Positions 425 through 33,832 of a stretch of 64,000 nucleotides of DNA are shown piece by piece (within the stretch, counting starts at the first letter, position 1; the number at the start of each line of letters is the position of its first letter). Source of the DNA: Candidatus Sericytochromatia bacterium (lineage in GTDB: Bacteria; Cyanobacteriota; Sericytochromatia; UBA7694); assembly GCA_018780035.1 (NCBI GenBank), contig JADMKE010000013.1, positions 62,001-126,000 on the forward strand, given 5' to 3'. The notes under the pieces were generated by a model that was given only the letters and a program-made list of their open reading frames with translations, was not told the DNA's origin and ran no database searches. The translations under genes were made by a program, and so were the position numbers.

Positions 425-1020
425 CTGAACCCCTGATCAAGCCCTTTGCCCATCCAGTCAACGACACGTTGATGCGGGCCCTGTTCTTTCCCAATGAGTT
501 CAGCCCCGAAGAGTGCCAGCGTCTGCAAGCGATTCCCGCTGACGCCGATTTAACCCGCCATTATCAGCAGATCGCCGCGCAAGATATGCCTGTTTACACC
601 CAAAATGGACGCTTTGAATCTGAGCTTTTGCCTTATCAACCTCAAAACGAATGGCTCTTTGATCGGCTCGGAAAAATCCTGCAAAGCGTGAATCAGGACT
701 ATTATCAGTTTGAATTGGGCAATCTGGCAGGCACCCAACGCGTCAATTTTGGCCCCGGCGATTACCTCGACTGGCATTTGGAACTGGGTGAAGGCCTGTT
801 TTCGCTGCGCAAAATCAGCCTGATTCTGTTTTTGAGTCCTGCCAGTGAATACACAGGTGGCAAGCTTGAAATTGGCAGCAGCAGCCAGCGCCACCAAAAC
901 CAATCCCAGGGCAGTCTGCTGATTTTTCCCGCTTATTTTATGACCCGGATTCACGCGGTTCAAAGTGGAAAATTGGCGTTTTTACAGACCTGGGTGCATG
1001 GCAAGAATCCCTTTGCCTGA
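421..1020 (+). CDS. Degenerate 2OG-Fe(II) oxygenase paralog, probably without classical activity
   Basis: This 199-residue protein aligns over its full length with the genes before and after it, but the active site is altered. The proximal motif is His119-x-Glu121 instead of His-x-Asp. The position of the distal metal His is Thr175, and the position of the 2-oxoglutarate Arg is Leu185. The fold-defining segments are kept, such as the LFLSPASEYTGGKLE stretch and the FPAY strand. The frame is intact, so this is not a decaying pseudogene. It starts in a 4-base overlap with the upstream gene, and its last 23 bases overlap the third paralog. A non-catalytic partner of the flanking enzymes, or a binding protein, is a reasonable inference. 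Activity with an unusual metal site cannot be excluded. Confidence 0.75.
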   Translation: MTEPLIKPFAHPVNDTLMRALFFPNEFSPEECQRLQAIPADADLTRHYQQIAAQDMPVYTQNGRFESELLPYQPQNEWLFDRLGKILQSVNQDYYQFELGNLAGTQRVNFGPGDYLDWHLELGEGLFSLRKISLILFLSPASEYTGGKLEIGSSSQRHQNQSQGSLLIFPAYFMTRIHAVQSGKLAFLQTWVHGKNPFA

Positions 1021-1597
1021 GAACAGCGAAAACCCAGGCAGCCACAACCGCTATTTGGTGCGTTATGTCTCTTTACCGGGTTTTTTAAACCCAGACGAAT
1101 GCATGCAACTGATCGACAGCAAAGGGGCCTTTCACCAGGCCAAAGTGGTTGCCCAACAATCGGGAGACGTTCAACTCAGTTTAAACGAGCGCAAAACCGA
1201 CACAAAAAGCATTGAAGACAATCCCGAAACCCACTGGATTTACCAACGCTTGCGCGAGACCTTGGTACGACTCAATCGCCAGACCTTTTGCTTTCAACTC
1301 AAACGCTTTTCAGCCCCAGAGATCTTAAGGTATGAGCCAGGGGGATTTTATGCTCCCCACACAGATTTGGGCAAAGGAGAGACGTCTTCACGCAAATTAA
1401 GTGCGGTTGCGCTTTTGTCTCCACCAGAAAGTTATGTGGGTGGGGAATTGGTTTTTTATCCGCGTTTTGCCCCCTGCCCACGGGAGCAAGGCACCCTCTT
1501 TCTCTTTCCCACTTATTTAATGCATGAAGTAAAGCCCGTCAACCAGGGCCAACGCTATACCTTGGTGACCTGGGTACACGGGCCGTGTTTGCGCTAA
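998..1597 (+). CDS. 2OG-Fe(II) oxygenase family protein, intact active site
   Basis: From the ATG at 998 this is a 199-residue protein, the same length as the preceding paralog. An in-frame GTG lies 33 bases upstream but gives an N-terminus not shared with the paralog. The triad is complete: His121-x-Asp123, distal His176 in MHEV, and Arg186 for 2-oxoglutarate. The protein is expected to be soluble and cytoplasmic, since no signal peptide is seen. It overlaps the upstream gene by 23 bases and the downstream glycosidase by 13, so all four genes are likely co-transcribed and translationally coupled. The substrate is not evident from sequence. Confidence 0.82.
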   Translation: MARIPLPENSENPGSHNRYLVRYVSLPGFLNPDECMQLIDSKGAFHQAKVVAQQSGDVQLSLNERKTDTKSIEDNPETHWIYQRLRETLVRLNRQTFCFQLKRFSAPEILRYEPGGFYAPHTDLGKGETSSRKLSAVALLSPPESYVGGELVFYPRFAPCPREQGTLFLFPTYLMHEVKPVNQGQRYTLVTWVHGPCLR

Positions 1598-2829
1598 AAA
1601 AGACCTTTCCCCCCGATTTTCTCTGGGGCACAGCCACCTCGGCCTATCAAGTCGAAGGGGGTATTTTTAATGATTGGAGCGCCGCCGGACACGATGCGGG
1701 GACGGGTGTGGCCCATGCCGAACGTTACCTTGAAGATTTTGAATGGGCCCAGAGCTTAAACACCAACGCCTTTCGCCTCTCCTTGGAGTGGGCCCGTTTA
1801 GAGCCCCAAGAAGGGGTCTGGGACAGCGAAGCCGAGGCCCATTATCTGCGCGTCTTTGCGGCCTTAAAGGCAGCGAATCTCGAACCGATGGTGACACTTT
1901 TTCACTTCACCTTGCCCATCTGGTTTGCCGCCAAAGGGGGCTGGACCCGCTCTGAAAACGGGGTTTATTTTCAGCGTTTTGCCGAGCGGGTAGCGGAATG
2001 CTTTGGGCATTGTGCCCGTTTGTGGATCACGCTCAATGAACCGATGGTCTATGTCTTTAAATGTTTTGACGAAGGTCTTTGGCCACCCTTTGTCAAAGAT
2101 CGCCGTGTGGCCCTCAAGGTCTTTCAGAATCTCTTGAAGGGGCATACCCTGGCTTATCACAGCCTACACGCATCAGCAAAACAGATTCAGGTCGGGATCG
2201 CCAAAAATTTTACCTTGCTCGAACCGCTCAATCACCTCAATCCGCTCGATCAACTCCAGGCCTATTTTCAGGATCGGATCTTTAACCGGGCTTTTGTAAT
2301 AGCCCTGATGGAAGGGCATTTTGAGATGATTTTGCCCGGCGCGGGCAAAATCACTGTGCCCTTTGATCCAGCCATGCGCGGCAGCCTGGATTTTCTCGGG
2401 GTGAATTATTATACCCGCTTCCGGGTCAATGCCCAGGGGGCCCATCTGACGCCACACAACGCCCCCCATTCGGACTTGGGCTGGGAAATCTATCCCGAAG
2501 GCCTGCTCAAGGTGCTGCAACTGGCCCAGAGTTTGACTGCAGCCCGCGATCTGCCCTTGTATATCACCGAAAACGGGCTGGCCGATGCCTCAGATCTTCT
2601 GCGGGGGCCATTTTTGACCACTCATCTGGCCCAATTGGCCCAAGCGCTTCGAGCCAAGATCCCAATCAAAGGTTATTTCTATTGGAGTTTGTTGGATAAT
2701 TTTGAATGGGCCGAAGGTTATGGCCCCCGTTTCGGTCTGCTGGATGCCGAACGGCGTTTGCGGCCCTCAGCCAAACTCTACCAAAGTCTGATTCAAGCGG
2801 CACAGGCCGAGCCCCTGCGACCCAGCTAA
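1585..2829 (+). CDS. Glycoside hydrolase family 1 (beta-glucosidase-like)
   Basis: This is a retaining GH1 enzyme of 414 residues, slightly shorter than the usual 440-480. The family N-terminus FPPDFLWGTATSAYQVEGG is present. The acid/base Glu152 lies in TLNEP and the nucleophile Glu329 in ITENG. The C-terminal YWSLLDNFEWAEGY segment binds the glycone. There is no signal peptide, so it acts in the cytoplasm on an imported or released beta-glycoside; beta-glucosidase, beta-galactosidase and 6-phospho variants cannot be separated here. The start is a GTG inside the end of the oxygenase gene (13-base overlap) with no clear Shine-Dalgarno site, which points to coupled translation. Its place in an oxygenase operon suggests processing of a glycosylated metabolite, which is inference. 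Confidence 0.9.
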   Translation: MFALKKTFPPDFLWGTATSAYQVEGGIFNDWSAAGHDAGTGVAHAERYLEDFEWAQSLNTNAFRLSLEWARLEPQEGVWDSEAEAHYLRVFAALKAANLEPMVTLFHFTLPIWFAAKGGWTRSENGVYFQRFAERVAECFGHCARLWITLNEPMVYVFKCFDEGLWPPFVKDRRVALKVFQNLLKGHTLAYHSLHASAKQIQVGIAKNFTLLEPLNHLNPLDQLQAYFQDRIFNRAFVIALMEGHFEMILPGAGKITVPFDPAMRGSLDFLGVNYYTRFRVNAQGAHLTPHNAPHSDLGWEIYPEGLLKVLQLAQSLTAARDLPLYITENGLADASDLLRGPFLTTHLAQLAQALRAKIPIKGYFYWSLLDNFEWAEGYGPRFGLLDAERRLRPSAKLYQSLIQAAQAEPLRPS

Positions 2830-2852
2830 AACCAAGAAACCGTTGAAAAAAA

Positions 2853-2951
2853 TTAAGACCGCTTAAAAACACGGGCCCAGCAGGCCCCTTCCCCCATTAA
2901 AGCAAAAATTAAAAACACCAGTGCAATGGCACTTAAAATTTGCAGAAGCAT
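2853..2951 (-). CDS. Possible 32-residue single-span membrane peptide
   Basis: An ATG-started frame of 32 codons encodes a peptide with one hydrophobic stretch (LSAIALVFLIFALMG) followed by a basic tail ending in FKRS. A GGGGA sequence sits about four bases before the ATG as a weak ribosome site. It lies in the gap between the glycosidase and the large propeller gene, with its 3' end about 20 bases from the glycosidase stop, so the two would be convergent. The topology is typical of small membrane proteins, but with no homology evidence this could be chance. Confidence 0.35.
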   Translation of the reverse strand: MLLQILSAIALVFLIFALMGEGACWARVFKRS

Positions 2952-3126
2952 GATTTCCCCATTATTGTCATTTTAAAGGCATTTTAAAGGCGTTTAGAAG
3001 ACGCATTCAAATCGCTTTAAAGTCAGTTACCACAAGGTTTTAAGACTGATTAAAATAATCTTATTTTGACCTGCAAATGATTTTAACACAGCGCCGCTCA
3101 GAAAGGGAGAGTTTAAGAGCTATGAT
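2952..3126. promoter_or_regulatory. AT-rich intergenic region with short repeats
   Basis: This gap precedes the large propeller gene. An 11-base unit (attttaaaggc) occurs twice in tandem at 2970-2991, and ctttaaag recurs near 3014. Further on, gatta and taatc form a small palindrome around 3048-3060, and a TTGACC sequence is at 3066-3071. It probably holds the promoter, but I could not place a convincing -10/-35 pair. Confidence 0.3.
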
Positions 3127-3165
3127 ATGCTGAAAAAGAGAGAAAATGAGATTCAGGAGCCCCCC

Positions 3166-6100
3166 ATGGAAATCCCCTCCCTGTCGCAACAAGAGCAAGA
3201 TCTGATGGCCCGAATTCTGGCCAAAGGCTGGCTCTCTGAGGCTGAAATGCAAGCTGTTTTGAGCAAGCGAGAAGCTGCCTGGAAAAAAGCCTGGACACCA
3301 CTTCAGGGTCTCTCTGCTGAAATTTCGGAGGAAAGTGGCTGTCTCTGTTTTAATCGCTTTCCAGAGGGAAAACTGCAAGCCACTGTGCCCTTGGAAAAAG
3401 AAGCCAAAAAACCGGGCCCCCAAGTTTGGGGCCGAGATGTGGTTTATCTCAATCCCGAAGATGGGCGTCTGCTGGAATACCGTGCTCTGCCAGCAAGTTA
3501 TCAACCGCGCCTGATTCTGCCCGAAAATGGCCATGCCTATCTGGGCAATTTTGAAAAACGCGATCCCTACCTGGGGGCTGGCAATCAAAGCCTGGACGTG
3601 CGTCTCTCGCGCGAACCTGGCTTTCGCCCCTGCGATCTGACGGTCTCCCCGCGCAACCAATTGCTGCTGGTGAGCAACCGCAAAGCGGGCACCTTGCAGG
3701 TGATCTCGCTCTTAACCCTGCGCCAATTGGCCTTGGTTCAGGTGCGCCCGCCAGGCAGTTTAAAAGCGATCAATACGGACATTGACGCCGAAGAAAAAAA
3801 CGTCTATTTAACCGATCAGAGCAGCCCCCAATTGCATATCCTTGATTTGGGTTCGTTTCGCCTGCTCAGTTTACAAACCGGCCTGGGAATTTTGGGCAAT
3901 TTGGTCTGTGCACCGGATCCCCGCTATTTGTATTTGCTCACACTCAAACCCCAGATGCGCCTGTTTTATTTTGATGTCGAGAGCTTTCAATCGGTTCAGG
4001 AGCTGAGCCTCAAAGGCGTGGCCTTCAGCCAGATCAGTGATCGCCCCAGCGATCTGATGCATCTGAGCCCGAATCAAGAACACCTGGCGCTGATCACCTG
4101 TCTGAATGAACCCACCCCCCTGACCCCGGTGGTACATATTATTCGCACCGACACGATCAAAACAATCCGGCGTTACGCAATTAAAGAAGGTTGCCACCCT
4201 GCTGCGCTGGTGACGGGCCAACCAAATCCATTGCAAACCTTGGAGGCCCGCAAACTGGCAAATTGGCTCAGCGACAAAATTTCACTGGCCCAGATTCGCG
4301 AACTGAATGCACCCCAGGAAGCCATTTTAGCAGCGGCACCACTCACTCCAGAACCAGAGTCTGAGCCCTTTGCGGCCGTCGCGCCCCCCGAAACAGACTC
4401 AGAAGTCGCGGCCTTGCTCTCACGGCCAGCACCGCCGATCAGTTTGCCAGCAGAAGCCGAAGCGGCGCTGGTGGAGCTATTGGTTCAGGCTTTTTACCAG
4501 GAGACCCAGATTCACCTGCGCACGTATCCAGCTGAGGTCAAACGCCTGCGCCAAGCCGCCCACGATCTCAAACTGGAACTGGAGCAAAAATACGCGGTCA
4601 TGGCCCAGATCGACGAGGTCTTGGAACAGTATAATTTTCAGACCCTGATCACCCGCGATGCGCTGATTCAGACCACCTATCCGCTGATGAAAGGCAAACG
4701 CCTGCCCTTTGCGCCAGCAGAGAATTGCCCGCTCTGCCAAGCCTCTTTGGCCCCACCGGCCCTCTGTCATGCCTGTGGCTTTCATTTGCCCGAGGTGGCT
4801 GGCGAAGACAAAGGCCCTGAATTGGCCCCCTCGCTGGAGGCCTTTGACCATTTACTCGAAGGCCAAATTCTACTCTGTTTGCCCGAAAAGGCCGAATTGC
4901 AATTGCTGAATAATTGGCACCGCCCACTCTGGACACTCACCGGCCAAAAGGGGCATTTTCAAACCCCCGTTTATGCCGTGGCCCTTGAAAACAGCCACTA
5001 TTTGGTGACCGATCAAGGCGCCCAGAAAGTGCTGGAGATCAGTGCCAAAGGCCAGGTCATTTGGGAGAGCAAAATTCCCCTCAACCAGCCACAAATGGCC
5101 ACTCTCTGCACAGAAAATGGCGAAGAACTGATTCTGATCGCCGATGCCAATCGTGTGATTGCCCTCAACCGACAACAGCAATTGCGCCATGTCTGGGGCG
5201 ATGAGACGGGTCTGCCCCTAAAAAACCCCTGCGATATTCAGCGCACAGCCAAAGGCACCTGGCTGATCACCGACAGCAATGGCGTGATGGAAGTGACTGC
5301 CGAACGCCACATCTTGAATAAATGGGGCCGCTTTCAGGGACTCAAACGCCCCGTTTCAGCCCGCCGCATAGGCAAAGGTCAGGTGCTGATTGTCGATGCC
5401 GAACAGGGCAAAATCCTGATCTTTAAAGACAGCAAACAGGAACAGGTCTTTACCTATTGGCCGCCCCCCAAAGCCTCGCCGCTGATGAGCAAATCGCCCC
5501 CACCAGAACGGGTGCTGTATACCGCCAAAGGCGAATTGATCTTAATCGGCAGCAAGTTCTGGCTGCAGTTTCAACCTGAACTGGGCAAACACCGCTGGGT
5601 CTCGACCCTGCCCCAAGATCGCAGCACACATACCCATCAAACCGGCCCGATTCCGCAAATAGCAAAAATTACGCCGCCGTCTTCGCCTTATACGGCCTTA
5701 CTCAAACAGGTCAGTTTTCTGGCCGATGCCGAACCTGCTCTGATCAATACCTTGGCAGAAAAATTGGTGCCCGTTTCACTGGAAGCCGAGGAATGGGTCT
5801 TTCATGAAGGCGAAGTCGGTAGCACCCTCTATTTTGTTGCCGAAGGCGAAGTCGCTGTGGTGCAAGAAGCCAAAGCAAATGTGCTGGCCCAGCTGGGCCC
5901 TGGCGATCTCTTTGGGGAAATGGCCCTGATTCTAAGTGAACCCCGCAGTGCCGGGGTACAAACCCGCAGCCAATGCCAATTACTCATGCTGGAGCGCACA
6001 GATTTTAAAGCCGTGGTGGCCAAGTTTCCGGGCTTGGCCAAAGACTTGCGCGTGGTGGCCCATCGCCGCAAGGTTTTGGCCCATCAGCTCAAGACCTCCA

Positions 6101-7380
6101 AGAACCAAGATCTGGTTCACCGTCTCAAGTCCAAAATGGCGATTGGCAAATTGCGCGAAATGCCCTTTTTTGAAGGCGGCGAAGAGGCCTTTTACGATAC
6201 CCTGGCGACCTGTCTGCGGCCCTTGAATTTTTTACCGGATCAAGAGGTCTTTCAACAGGGAGATCCCGGCCACTCGGTCTATTTTATCAGCCGGGGGGCG
6301 GTGGGGGTCTTTCAGGACAAAAGCAAAACGCCCAGTATCGAATTGAGTGTGGGCGATGTCTTTGGCGAGATGGCGCTGGTCACAGAACAACCCCGCAACG
6401 CCACGGTGCGCAGCCTGGGCTATTGCCAGTTCTTTGAATTGGAGCGGGAATCCTTTGACCATGTCTGCCGCCAATTTCCGCATTTTTCTGAGCGCATGCG
6501 CCAATTGGTGCGCCAACGCCAAGAGATGAATCTGCTCAGCCAAACAGGCCAGCGGATCATGCCTGTGAATATCTCAGAGTGGCTTTCAGCCACTGAGGCC
6601 TGCTCCTTTTACACCAGTCCCCTGCAAGAGCGGCTGATGGCTTTAAACAAACACGGCGAGTTGATCGAAGCCTGGGGCCCAGACAAAGGCCTGCATCTCT
6701 TTCAGCCCTTTCGCGTCAATACCTGCAGTGGCAGTTTGATGTTGGCCGACACTGGCAATGACCGGGTGCTGGAATTGGATCAAAAAAGCCAGAAAGTGCT
6801 GAGAGAATGGGGAGATCACCGCCTAGGTCTGCAACAGCCGCGCTCGGCGGTCAAAACTTCGGGTGGTTTTTACCTGATTGCAGACGAAGGCAATCAACGC
6901 CTGATTGCGATTACGGGCGAAGGACAGATTGTCTGGGAATACACCACGCCCCACGAAATCTTGAGTCCGTATTATGCCGAATTTACCCCCGGAGATGGGA
7001 TCTTGTTTGCTGACACAGCGATGCACATTGTGCGCGAGATCAACCGCAATGGCGAAGTGCTCTGGAGCTACGGCTCGCTGCTGATAGCCGGTTCGGGCCC
7101 CGACGAACTCTGTGAGCCGATGTGTGCCCGGCGTCTGCCCGACGGCCAGACGGTGATTGCAGATACCGGCAACGAGCGTCTGCTCTGGGTCAATCCCGCC
7201 GGACGGCTGGCCCAAAGCTGGCACCCCCCGGCCCATGGCAAATTCCGCCGCCCTGTGCATATCGAGGTATTGCCAGAGGGTGAGTTATTGGTTTACTCAG
7301 GCCAGTCAGAGGTACTGACCCTGCTCAGTCCCCAAGGCAAACAGCTCTGGGAAAAAGAACTGCCTCAAGCCACTTATTAG
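3166..7380 (+). CDS. Multidomain beta-propeller protein with zinc ribbon and two cyclic-nucleotide-binding domains
   Basis: About 1404 residues. An in-frame ATG occurs at 3127, but the ATG at 3166 has an AGGAG site seven bases before it and is preferred. The order of parts is: a short N-terminal region; a YVTN/NHL-like propeller (about 100-370); an acidic linker with a helical stretch; a zinc ribbon (CPLC then CHAC, about 520-540); a second propeller; two cyclic-nucleotide-binding folds with FGEMAL phosphate-cassette motifs (bases about 5910 and 6360) followed by PRSAGV and PRNATV; and a third NHL-type propeller to the end. No signal peptide, kinase, cyclase or DNA-binding domain is visible. 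It looks like a cytoplasmic scaffold or sensor responding to cAMP or cGMP. The function is unknown. Confidence 0.8.
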   Translation: MEIPSLSQQEQDLMARILAKGWLSEAEMQAVLSKREAAWKKAWTPLQGLSAEISEESGCLCFNRFPEGKLQATVPLEKEAKKPGPQVWGRDVVYLNPEDGRLLEYRALPASYQPRLILPENGHAYLGNFEKRDPYLGAGNQSLDVRLSREPGFRPCDLTVSPRNQLLLVSNRKAGTLQVISLLTLRQLALVQVRPPGSLKAINTDIDAEEKNVYLTDQSSPQLHILDLGSFRLLSLQTGLGILGNLVCAPDPRYLYLLTLKPQMRLFYFDVESFQSVQELSLKGVAFSQISDRPSDLMHLSPNQEHLALITCLNEPTPLTPVVHIIRTDTIKTIRRYAIKEGCHPAALVTGQPNPLQTLEARKLANWLSDKISLAQIRELNAPQEAILAAAPLTPEPESEPFAAVAPPETDSEVAALLSRPAPPISLPAEAEAALVELLVQAFYQETQIHLRTYPAEVKRLRQAAHDLKLELEQKYAVMAQIDEVLEQYNFQTLITRDALIQTTYPLMKGKRLPFAPAENCPLCQASLAPPALCHACGFHLPEVAGEDKGPELAPSLEAFDHLLEGQILLCLPEKAELQLLNNWHRPLWTLTGQKGHFQTPVYAVALENSHYLVTDQGAQKVLEISAKGQVIWESKIPLNQPQMATLCTENGEELILIADANRVIALNRQQQLRHVWGDETGLPLKNPCDIQRTAKGTWLITDSNGVMEVTAERHILNKWGRFQGLKRPVSARRIGKGQVLIVDAEQGKILIFKDSKQEQVFTYWPPPKASPLMSKSPPPERVLYTAKGELILIGSKFWLQFQPELGKHRWVSTLPQDRSTHTHQTGPIPQIAKITPPSSPYTALLKQVSFLADAEPALINTLAEKLVPVSLEAEEWVFHEGEVGSTLYFVAEGEVAVVQEAKANVLAQLGPGDLFGEMALILSEPRSAGVQTRSQCQLLMLERTDFKAVVAKFPGLAKDLRVVAHRRKVLAHQLKTSKNQDLVHRLKSKMAIGKLREMPFFEGGEEAFYDTLATCLRPLNFLPDQEVFQQGDPGHSVYFISRGAVGVFQDKSKTPSIELSVGDVFGEMALVTEQPRNATVRSLGYCQFFELERESFDHVCRQFPHFSERMRQLVRQRQEMNLLSQTGQRIMPVNISEWLSATEACSFYTSPLQERLMALNKHGELIEAWGPDKGLHLFQPFRVNTCSGSLMLADTGNDRVLELDQKSQKVLREWGDHRLGLQQPRSAVKTSGGFYLIADEGNQRLIAITGEGQIVWEYTTPHEILSPYYAEFTPGDGILFADTAMHIVREINRNGEVLWSYGSLLIAGSGPDELCEPMCARRLPDGQTVIADTGNERLLWVNPAGRLAQSWHPPAHGKFRRPVHIEVLPEGELLVYSGQSEVLTLLSPQGKQLWEKELPQATY

Positions 7381-30160: not shown

Positions 30161-31444
30161 ATGAGCCCAGATCTTCTGAAAGCCTTGCAAGAGCGAGGTA
30201 TGTTAGAGCAAATTTCAGATCCCGAAGGCATCAGCCAAGCCCTGGCGCAGGGCCCTGTCACTTTGTATATTGGCTTTGACCCCACCGCCACCAGCCTGCA
30301 TATCGGCAATTTACTGCCGATTATGCTCTTGGCCCATTTTCAACGAGCAGGCCACCGCCCGATCTGTCTGGTCGGAGGCGCCACTGGTATGATTGGCGAT
30401 CCCAGCGGGCGCAGCAGTGAGCGCGTACTGTTGACCAACGATAAAGTGGATGAAAACGTCAACAAAATCCGCACCCAACTCGGGCGTTTTCTGCGTTTTG
30501 AGGGCCCGCAAGCGGCCCTCATGACCAATAATCACGACTGGATCGCCCCCCTGAGTTATATCGACTGGCTGCGTGATGTCGGCAAACATTTTAGCGTCAA
30601 TTATATGATCGCCAAAGAGTCGGTCCGCCGCCGCCTCGAAGACCGCGACCAGGGCATTTCTTATACTGAATTCAGCTATATGTTGCTGCAGTCTTATGAC
30701 TTTTTGCATCTCTTTCGCACAGAGAATTGCAAAATTCAGGCCGGGGGCAACGATCAATGGGGCAATATCACGGCAGGGATTGATCTCGTGCGCAAGGTGA
30801 CAGGGCAAACTGCTTACGGCCTCACCATCCCACTTTTGACCACCGCCAGCGGGGAAAAATTTGGCAAATCTGCAGGCAACGCTGTCTGGCTTGATGCTGA
30901 GATGACCTCCCCTTACCAGTTTTACCAATACTGGATTCAGGCCGATGATCGCGATGTCGAACGTTACCTGCGCATTTTCAGCTTTTTGGAATTGGACGAA
31001 ATAGCAGCGATCTGCTCAGAACATGCCGAGAAGCCCGAATTGCGCTTGGCCCAAAAGCGGCTGGCATCAGAAGTGACCACAATTGTGCATGGTGCCGAAG
31101 CGGTTGAGAAAGTCCTGCAAGCCACCGAAGTGCTCTTTGGCCGGGAAATCAATGGCCTCTGCGATGCCGATTTACTCGCAATTTTTGCCGATGTACCCTC
31201 AACCCAATTGGAACGCAGCCGCCTCGGTGGAGATTTGACACTGACCCAACTGCTGCGGGAAACAGGTCTGAGCACTTCCAATGGTGAAGCTCGCCGCCTG
31301 ATACAAGCGGGGGGGGTCTATCTCAACAACCGCAAATGCAGCGATCCACAAATGCTGATTGATGCCAATAGTCTGGCCTCTGAGACCACCTTGGTTTTGC
31401 GCAGTGGCAAAAAAAATTATCATCTGGCCCGATTTCAAGCCTAA
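30161..31444 (+). CDS. tyrS: Tyrosyl-tRNA synthetase
   Basis: 427 residues. The class I motifs are HIGN (47-50) and KFGKS (about 233-237, for KMSKS). YIGFDPTATSLHIGN and the SYMLLQSYDFLHLF helix belong to the bacterial TyrRS group that uses tyrosine. A C-terminal S4 RNA-binding domain (EARRLIQAGGVYLNNRK) completes the enzyme. A ggtataatgg promoter-like sequence follows the gene, so the kinase gene probably has its own promoter. AAAGGA lies 11 bases before the start. Confidence 0.97.
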   Translation: MSPDLLKALQERGMLEQISDPEGISQALAQGPVTLYIGFDPTATSLHIGNLLPIMLLAHFQRAGHRPICLVGGATGMIGDPSGRSSERVLLTNDKVDENVNKIRTQLGRFLRFEGPQAALMTNNHDWIAPLSYIDWLRDVGKHFSVNYMIAKESVRRRLEDRDQGISYTEFSYMLLQSYDFLHLFRTENCKIQAGGNDQWGNITAGIDLVRKVTGQTAYGLTIPLLTTASGEKFGKSAGNAVWLDAEMTSPYQFYQYWIQADDRDVERYLRIFSFLELDEIAAICSEHAEKPELRLAQKRLASEVTTIVHGAEAVEKVLQATEVLFGREINGLCDADLLAIFADVPSTQLERSRLGGDLTLTQLLRETGLSTSNGEARRLIQAGGVYLNNRKCSDPQMLIDANSLASETTLVLRSGKKNYHLARFQA

Positions 31445-31577: not shown

Positions 31578-33176
31578 ATGTCCGCACAAAAAAAATACTG
31601 CCTGGAGTGCTTTGCAATTATTGATGCAGAGCTTGAAACCTGCTCGCAGTGTGGTTATGTTCAGCCCACAGAGTACAACCCCCTCTATTTGAAGCCCCCG
31701 TTTCGGCTCAATCGCCAATATGTGATTGGCAAGGTGCTCGGACACGGTGGTTTTGGCATTACCTATCTCGGTTTTGATCGCCATCTCAATACCCGTGTTG
31801 CCATCAAAGAGTATTTTCCGGCCGAATTTGCCAGCCGGGCCCCCGATGGCCAGCAGGTCATTCCCTACAGTGGCGACAAAAGTGAATTGTTTAAATTGGG
31901 CCGAGACAAATTTATCGCAGAGGCCCGCCTGCTGGCTTCGCTACGCAGCCCACATATCGTACGCATTCGCCATTTCTTTGAAGAGTGCAATACCGCTTAT
32001 TTTATTATGGAATACCTCGAAGGTAACACCCTGAGCCAGCATGTGGCCAATCAGGGCGGGCGAATCAAACCCGAAAAAATCAAAGGCCTGCTGCTGCCCC
32101 TCTTGGAGGCACTCGAAGAGGTCCATGCCAAGAACTCCTTCCACCGCGATATCAAACCCGACAATGTCTATGTCACCAGCAAAGGCCAACCCATTTTGCT
32201 CGACTTTGGCGCGGCCCGTCAGCAAATGTCGGGGGCAACCACCAATTTATTGGCCTTTTTAACCCCAGGTTTTGCCCCGGCTGAACAGTATTCCACCAAT
32301 GGCATTCAGGGGCCTTGGACAGATATCTATGCCTTGGCCGCCACCATGTATTATGCTCTGACGGGAAATATCCCGCCGGTTCCCCATGACCGCATGATGG
32401 GCGACCAGGAATTGATCCGTCCTTCAGCTCTGGGTGTGAAGATCAGCCCCAAAGACGAAGAATGGTTGATTCAGGGTTTGGCCCTCAAATGGAGCCAACG
32501 TCCCGAAAATATCACCCAATGGCGCAAACTGATCGAAGCAGCTGATAACACAGCGGCCCCCATGAATAATTTTAAGCGTTCAGAAGAAGAAAACTTCATG
32601 CGGATCGCCATTTTGCCGCGTTTGGTTTCGCGCTTTTTAACCCCCACAGCAGAAGCCGAGATCCATGAATCAGCTGGATTTATGGAGATCTCGCGCGAAC
32701 GGGTCGAAACCCTGATCGAAGAAGCTCTGATGATGACAGGCTCGACCCGACGCGACCCAGATGCAGAAAAGCGCAAGGAACAAGAGCGCCGCAAACAATT
32801 GGAAGAAGACTTAAAGCGGCGCCAAGCCCGTGATGCCGCAGATGAGGCTCACCGGCAGGAGCAAAGGCTAAAACAAGAAGCCGAAAAAAAACGGCAAGAC
32901 GAAGAAGAGCTACAGCGCAAACAAGATGAGGAAAAAAGGACCACGGAACGGGCTCAGCAAGAGACGGCAAGACGAGAAGAGGCCCTGAGGCAATCACAAA
33001 AACAGCCCCCCCCCCCGTCAAAGAGCCCATGGCCGAAGCCCCAAAACCGGAAACACCCGGCAAAGGCAGACCCCACAAGCCACCACCGGCCACGCCGCCC
33101 CCTGCCGCTCCTCCTCCTACAGCCGACATCCCCCCTGCGGCAAAGATCAAAGCAGCCCCACGTTTTACCAACTTGA
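31578..33176 (+). CDS. Ser/Thr protein kinase with zinc ribbon, frameshifted at a poly-C tract
   Basis: A zinc ribbon (Cys8, Cys11, Cys22, Cys25) opens the protein. A complete Hanks-type kinase follows: GHGGFG loop (55-60), Lys77, HRDIKPDN (189-196) and DFG (209-211), all intact. A Glu/Arg/Gln-rich coiled coil then runs to residue about 476. There the frame passes through 11 consecutive C and continues for about 50 residues of out-of-frame sequence (rich in Arg, His and Pro) to the stop at 33176. The other frame carries the FGE-sulfatase-like domain. One extra C would join both into a 751-residue kinase-FGE protein, as known in Cyanobacteria. Confidence 0.85.
   Translation: MSAQKKYCLECFAIIDAELETCSQCGYVQPTEYNPLYLKPPFRLNRQYVIGKVLGHGGFGITYLGFDRHLNTRVAIKEYFPAEFASRAPDGQQVIPYSGDKSELFKLGRDKFIAEARLLASLRSPHIVRIRHFFEECNTAYFIMEYLEGNTLSQHVANQGGRIKPEKIKGLLLPLLEALEEVHAKNSFHRDIKPDNVYVTSKGQPILLDFGAARQQMSGATTNLLAFLTPGFAPAEQYSTNGIQGPWTDIYALAATMYYALTGNIPPVPHDRMMGDQELIRPSALGVKISPKDEEWLIQGLALKWSQRPENITQWRKLIEAADNTAAPMNNFKRSEEENFMRIAILPRLVSRFLTPTAEAEIHESAGFMEISRERVETLIEEALMMTGSTRRDPDAEKRKEQERRKQLEEDLKRRQARDAADEAHRQEQRLKQEAEKKRQDEEELQRKQDEEKRTTERAQQETARREEALRQSQKQPPPPSKSPWPKPQNRKHPAKADPTSHHRPRRPLPLLLLQPTSPLRQRSKQPHVLPT
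33006..33016 (+). repeat. Homopolymer of 11 C at the kinase/FGE junction
   Basis: Eleven C in a row lie where the kinase frame and the FGE-domain frame should join. Twelve (or nine) would keep the frame open. The tract can slip in replication or transcription, or be miscounted in sequencing. Confidence 0.9.
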
Positions 33177-33832
33177 TGGGCATGGACTTTGTCTTGGTTG
33201 AACCCGAAATGCAGGCTTTTCAAATGGGCAAAGCGGATAATCATTACAACGTCATTTTGAGTCGCGCCTATTATTTGCAGACCACTCCCATTACCCAGGG
33301 CCAGTGGCGCATGGTTATGGGCATCAACCCCTCTCGCTTTCAAGGTGACGAATGGCGCCCGGTTGAACAGGTCAGTTGGGATGATTGCCAAATCTTTATT
33401 CAGCGCCTGAATTCACTCAAAGAGGGCAATTACCGCCTGCCTACCGAAGCCGAATGGGAATATGCCTGCCGCTGGGGACAAAGAACAGCTTATGGCTTTG
33501 GTGATACCGAAGAGGAATTGCTTGAAAATGGCTGGTTTGACCGCAATTCCGAAGGCGGCACCCATCCTGTTGGCTTAAAAAAGCCGAATAAATGGGGTCT
33601 GTACGATATGCATGGCAATGTCTGGGAATGGACCCAGGATCGTTTTTCGGCCTTTCCCACAGGCACATTTACCGATCCCAAAGGCTCAGACAGTGGGGCC
33701 TCACGTGTCATGCGTGGAGGCAGTTGGAATCTGGGTGCCAGCTATTGCCGGGCCGAAAGCCGCAATTATGAGATTCCCAGCTACCGCTTTCAGAATTTGG
33801 GCTTTCGGCTTTTGCTTGAAGTCAAAATTTAA
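33017..33832 (+). CDS. FGE-sulfatase-like domain, second part of the split kinase
   Basis: The frame continues from the poly-C tract as a Pro/Ala-rich linker, then a formylglycine-generating-enzyme-like (SUMF1) domain. Key segments are FTNLMGMDFVLVEPE, TQGQWRMVMG, LPTEAEWEYACRWG, LYDMHGNVWEW, SRVMRGGSWNLG and FRLLLEV. An ATG at 33029 has no good ribosome site, so independent translation is doubtful. Domains of this class attached to kinases often act as substrate or C-type-lectin-like binding modules, not true formylglycine enzymes. The stop overlaps that of the transporter on the other strand. Confidence 0.8.
   Translation, partial: VKEPMAEAPKPETPGKGRPHKPPPATPPPAAPPPTADIPPAAKIKAAPRFTNLMGMDFVLVEPEMQAFQMGKADNHYNVILSRAYYLQTTPITQGQWRMVMGINPSRFQGDEWRPVEQVSWDDCQIFIQRLNSLKEGNYRLPTEAEWEYACRWGQRTAYGFGDTEEELLENGWFDRNSEGGTHPVGLKKPNKWGLYDMHGNVWEWTQDRFSAFPTGTFTDPKGSDSGASRVMRGGSWNLGASYCRAESRNYEIPSYRFQNLGFRLLLEVKI

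Follow-up and report, generated by a model that had tools for sequence, protein, structure and literature searches.

Why do a Ser/Thr protein kinase and a conserved C-terminal domain, which together look like one protein, lie in different reading frames on either side of a run of eleven cytosines? The locus lies in a stretch of 64,000 nucleotides from a Sericytochromatia contig, here called the window, and the assembly to which the window belongs (G000) comprises 6.47 Mb in 64 contigs. An earlier reading made from the letters alone (the sequence-only reading) had described the kinase as intact to residue 476 and then shifted by 11 C away from the frame of an FGE-sulfatase-like domain, and our reading of the ORFs and the Pfam matches confirmed this description. 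The features of the locus are:

30161-31444, + strand: tyrS-like gene (named by resemblance), upstream neighbour and synteny anchor
31578-33005, + strand: kinase half, read without a frame change as far as the tract (residues 1-476), 75% identical to the same-genus orthologue
31599-31652, + strand: zinc-ribbon-like motif of four Cys near the N-terminus (CxxC...CxxC; C8/C11/C22/C25), conserved without change in 5 orthologues
31719-32381, + strand: Hanks-type Ser/Thr kinase domain (Pfam PF00069, E 2.3e-32) with VAIK, HRDIKPDN and DFG intact
32754-33005, + strand: charged, coiled-coil-like linker rich in Glu, Arg, Lys and Gln, variable among relatives
33006-33016, + strand: C11 tract and site of the frame change, at a locus that is single-copy in the assembly
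33017-33166, + strand: Pro-rich linker in the FGE frame (VKEPMAEAPKPE...AAPRF), read from the sequence
33017-33176, + strand: tail read out of frame past the C11 tract, ending in TGA at 33174-33176 (ORF reading)
33167-33832, + strand: FGE-sulfatase-like domain (C-type-lectin fold) with its stop codon (Pfam PF03781, E 1.3e-39)

With 11 C in the assembled sequence, the kinase and the FGE-like domain are not in one frame. The kinase ORF (31578-33176, + strand) is 532 aa long, of which residues 1-476 are encoded ahead of the tract, while the FGE-like frame is open from upstream of the tract to the stop at 33830-33832 and has an ATG at 33029. The proposal that one added C creates a 751-residue fusion is correct, and the loss of two C would serve equally: any multiple of three (9, 12 or 15 C) gives an in-frame fusion, and a length of 12 is not singled out. 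The TGA at 33174-33176 overlaps an ATG at 33176-33178 (TGATG), and this ATG is in the FGE frame and at the start of the FGE-like domain.

Orthologues were compared in one genome of the same genus (G001) and three genomes of the same family (G002, G003 and G004); the scan for relatives found no second genome of the same species. In all four, the orthologue is located downstream of tyrS, as it is here, and forms a single unbroken kinase-FGE ORF (812, 723, 813 and 737 codons, respectively). Another five fused copies likewise have no break: one in the assembly of the window itself (G000 C44, 812 codons) and one in each relative (G001 C41, 888; G002 C1, 687; G003 C142, 663; and G004 C302, 680), with the FGE-like part checked in four of them and inferred from length in G002 C1. 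The frame break is a singleton among the ten fused copies of this kinase-FGE family. An HMM of the FGE-like domains was run over about 100 loci; it detected the domain only inside kinase ORFs and no separate FGE ORF beside a kinase. No second, in-frame copy of the locus was found in the G000 assembly. Since the orthologues are fused, the two ORFs are not neighbours by chance, and judging from these comparisons the kinase-FGE fusion is ancestral. The fusion that the sequence-only reading had suggested looking for in related genomes is therefore present in the four syntenic orthologues and in the five further copies, and the alternative it had named, that kinase and FGE domain are always separate in relatives, is the opposite of what was observed. 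It had also asked whether relatives show 12 C, a comparison that does not apply because the C tract is absent from the join in all four orthologues. Within the protein, conservation is lowest in the linker. The Zn-ribbon family also includes kinases that stand alone, without the FGE-like domain (L073, G000:C44:213000-216500, 413 aa, and L075, G001:C61, 405 aa); they are about 58% identical to the window kinase.

The domain downstream of the tract is under the same degree of constraint as in the same-genus relative and shows no sign of decay. Between G000 and G001, for which synonymous sites are near saturation, pN is 0.144 and pS 0.661 in the FGE-like region (ratio about 0.2), and the corresponding values for the kinase region are 0.133 and 0.704. 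The G000 sequence keeps 94 of the 96 FGE columns that are invariant in the four relatives, and the lineage-specific changes of G000 and G001 are equal with each of three outgroups (9 vs 8, 12 vs 12, and 14 vs 15). The FGE-like tail was accordingly under selection until very recently; the pattern excludes long disuse and is still compatible with a very recent break.

Homopolymer and N-run statistics were obtained from whole-genome pattern counts and a 464-kb sample of the genome. The assembly contains 59 C runs of length nine, while lengths of 10, 11, 12 and 14 occur six, three, two and one times, respectively; this gives 71 runs of at least 9 C, 12 of at least 10 and 6 of at least 11. With an extension probability of ~0.25 per base, about 4 tracts of at least 11 C are expected, and the C11 tract itself is not extraordinary for this genome. 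CCC accounts for 476 of the 1013 Pro codons (47%) in the long ORFs of the window; with this codon favoured for Pro and many Pro residues in the hinge, a long C run readily arises here. Among the 11 other tracts of at least 10 C, eight are gap-free and coding, one is outside a clear ORF and two abut N gaps. All eight gap-free coding tracts (C10-C14) sit in intact ORFs, and in several of these the tract lies within or beside the domain matched by homology (RNase J, an MFS carrier, a DsbD-like protein and a twin LysM protein). The 12 tracts of at least 10 C thus display no genome-wide excess of frame-breaking C tracts of the kind expected for contingency loci. Two of the six tracts of at least 11 C directly adjoin N gaps (C12 in L063, 2538-2559, with 10 N; C11 in L068, 2520-2548, with 18 N), compared with a single N run in the 464-kb sample, which indicates that assembly trouble concentrates at long C tracts. 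The longest run, 14 G at L071 2545-2558 (G000:C63:78044-78057), encodes a glycine run in an intact ORF of 255 residues without a Pfam match. In one relative, an 18-C run near a contig end (L090 2546-2563, G002:C134) interrupts an apparent histidine-kinase ATPase domain and is another suspect tract.

We consider, with a probability of roughly 0.7, that the locus encodes a fused kinase-CLec/FGE sensor whose tract length was mis-assembled or is passively variable. Of the three explanations offered by the sequence-only reading (an on/off switch, a programmed slip or a sequencing error), error, widened here to incidental variation, is favoured because the break is a singleton, the relatives lack the tract, no other gap-free tract breaks an ORF and N gaps are found beside long C tracts. 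A wrong tract length in the assembly has, taken by itself, slightly less than an even chance of being the cause; that the tract changed in length without selection, or varies passively within the population sampled, is a more tentative possibility. It is expected that singleton frameshifts validated by homology are mostly sequencing errors (PMC3711429), and the real lengths of G/C tracts can differ from those in database sequences (PMC9187656). Several points argue against mis-assembly: eight comparably long tracts (C10-C14) in the same assembly keep their frame, showing that errors are not universal; the N gaps beside C tracts could equally reflect true length heterogeneity; and eleven C are long enough for slippage in living cells. 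A genuine recent frameshift that became fixed in the strain is unlikely in our estimation. Its kinase would work without the FGE-like domain, or the two halves would be made separately through re-initiation at TGATG (33174-33178), and both the stand-alone kinases of the same clade (L073 and L075) and the exact overlap of the shifted-frame TGA with an ATG at the start of the FGE-like domain are consistent with this. However, constraint in the domain is not relaxed, so that the break would have to be very recent, and the TGATG stems from a Leu-Met codon pair that is also found in the same-genus relative (TTGATG), which has no need for it. Inspection by eye revealed no evident Shine-Dalgarno-like sequence ahead of 33029 or 33176. 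In the 11-C state the FGE-like domain might still be made separately from TGATG, and the overlap may be accidental.

Slipped-strand phase variation, in which gain or loss of C during replication would give some cells a kinase with the CLec/FGE domain and others a kinase with a short out-of-frame tail, seems improbable. The tract is intragenic, located at a domain boundary and long enough to slip, and the downstream domain is conserved as though in use. Poly-C switches in regulators are known from bvgS of Bordetella (C6/C7, PMC1891110) and mga of group A Streptococcus (C8/C7, PMC10330708), and in Bifidobacterium breve a G tract splits one gene into two ORFs (PMC9187656). These genes share with the present locus an intragenic C/G homopolymer whose length sets the downstream frame; however, length variants were shown experimentally for bvgS, mga and the B. 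breve pilus genes, whereas here there is one assembled length and the relatives have no tract. What speaks for a phase switch at this locus is the tract itself, beside these good precedents, and against it stand the tract-free join in 4/4 relatives, the unbroken ORFs at the other gap-free long C tracts and the cytosolic kinase, which is atypical as a surface contingency gene. Slightly more improbable again is a switch that toggles a lectin-fold sensor on a cytosolic kinase in a non-photosynthetic cyanobacterial lineage, where cells with 11 C might make two separate proteins through re-initiation at TGATG. A true switch would mean that a signalling kinase exchanges a module by phase variation, in a lineage whose contingency loci have been little studied. 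Programmed slippage at the tract, either transcriptional or by -1 ribosomal frameshifting, would produce the short and the fused protein from one gene, and a homopolymer can in principle slip. We regard it as very improbable: the RNA 3' of the tract is not unusually stable (z -0.95; 41/200 shuffles fold as well), no Rfam element was found at the locus, documented bacterial transcriptional slippage occurs at A/T runs (PMC6260861, PMC1088944) and the tract site is absent from the relatives. The practical value of the favoured reading, a fused sensor with a mis-assembled or passively variable tract, is that the annotation is to be corrected to one conserved fused sensor kinase, and that C-tract lengths in this assembly are not to be trusted.

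The fused product would be one cytosolic protein with a Zn-ribbon, a Hanks Ser/Thr kinase, a helical region, a coiled-coil-like linker, a Pro-rich hinge and a C-terminal FGE-type domain of the C-type-lectin fold. Cytosolic location is predicted from the lack of an apparent membrane segment, the four-Cys motif probably binds zinc, and the amino acid composition of the linker (32754-33005) suggests a coiled coil. In the kinase domain, K77, D191 and D209FG are invariant in the orthologue alignment. The FGE-like domain contains one of the two FGE active-site cysteines: the first is replaced by Gly and the second is kept (NLGASYC, compared with MCHRSYC in human FGE). FGE/SUMF1 and the present domain share the Pfam FGE-sulfatase fold but differ in this respect, and with only one of the two cysteines the formylglycine-generating oxidase reaction is unlikely. 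The domain probably binds a ligand or substrate instead and would present it to the kinase, and ligand sensing by the lectin-fold domain may be its role. Among solved structures, TvpA of Treponema denticola (2y3c), a DGR-diversified protein, comes closest in both sequence and fold, followed by FGE and PvdO. Confidence in the AlphaFold model of the FGE-like domain is low (mean pLDDT 62.6, six sequences), so that the fold matches serve only as support. The kinase also matches the defence families mad6 and PD-T4-6; these matches were ascribed to general kinase-domain similarity, and no defence role was derived from them.

Proteins of this kind are known, as kinase-FGE fusions have already been reported in Cyanobacteria (PMC2176072, PMC1262709, PMC7517822), which bears out the sequence-only reading on this point. 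Cyanobacterial Ser/Thr kinases with a C-terminal DUF323 (= FGE-sulfatase) domain form the subfamily cbSTKII (PMC2176072; also PMC1262709) and resemble the present protein in the N-terminal Hanks kinase, the C-terminal FGE-like domain and the phylum. The present protein differs in that it comes from the Sericytochromatia and carries a four-Cys motif at its N-terminus as well as a long coiled-coil/Pro linker; in other classes of the phylum, the best matches to its kinase reach only about 37-39% identity. In Cyanobacteria, DGRs often target kinase-CLec proteins (PMC7517822), and the DGR variable proteins and their paralogues (PMC7517822, PMC10907252) share with the present protein a kinase and a C-terminal CLec domain of the FGE subtype. 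In contrast to these variable proteins, the C-terminus is here conserved between relatives rather than hypervariable.

Because TvpA is the nearest structure, we considered whether a DGR diversifies the CLec domain and rejected this, as no DGR reverse transcriptase was found in the assembly (94.8% complete), in which only two RVT_1 matches are present. The first is a retron type XIII-like reverse transcriptase (L076, G000:C37:20000-28000, 2664-4346; PADLOC E 1.2e-173). The second is a UG5-nitrilase reverse transcriptase of the DRT type (L077, G000:C52:98000-104500, region 610-6499; PADLOC E 3.5e-262). It is encoded on the same strand as, and between, a PglX-like N-terminal half (610-2418) and an apparent C-terminal specificity half of a protein of that kind (5726-6499), an arrangement resembling a methyltransferase gene split around it.
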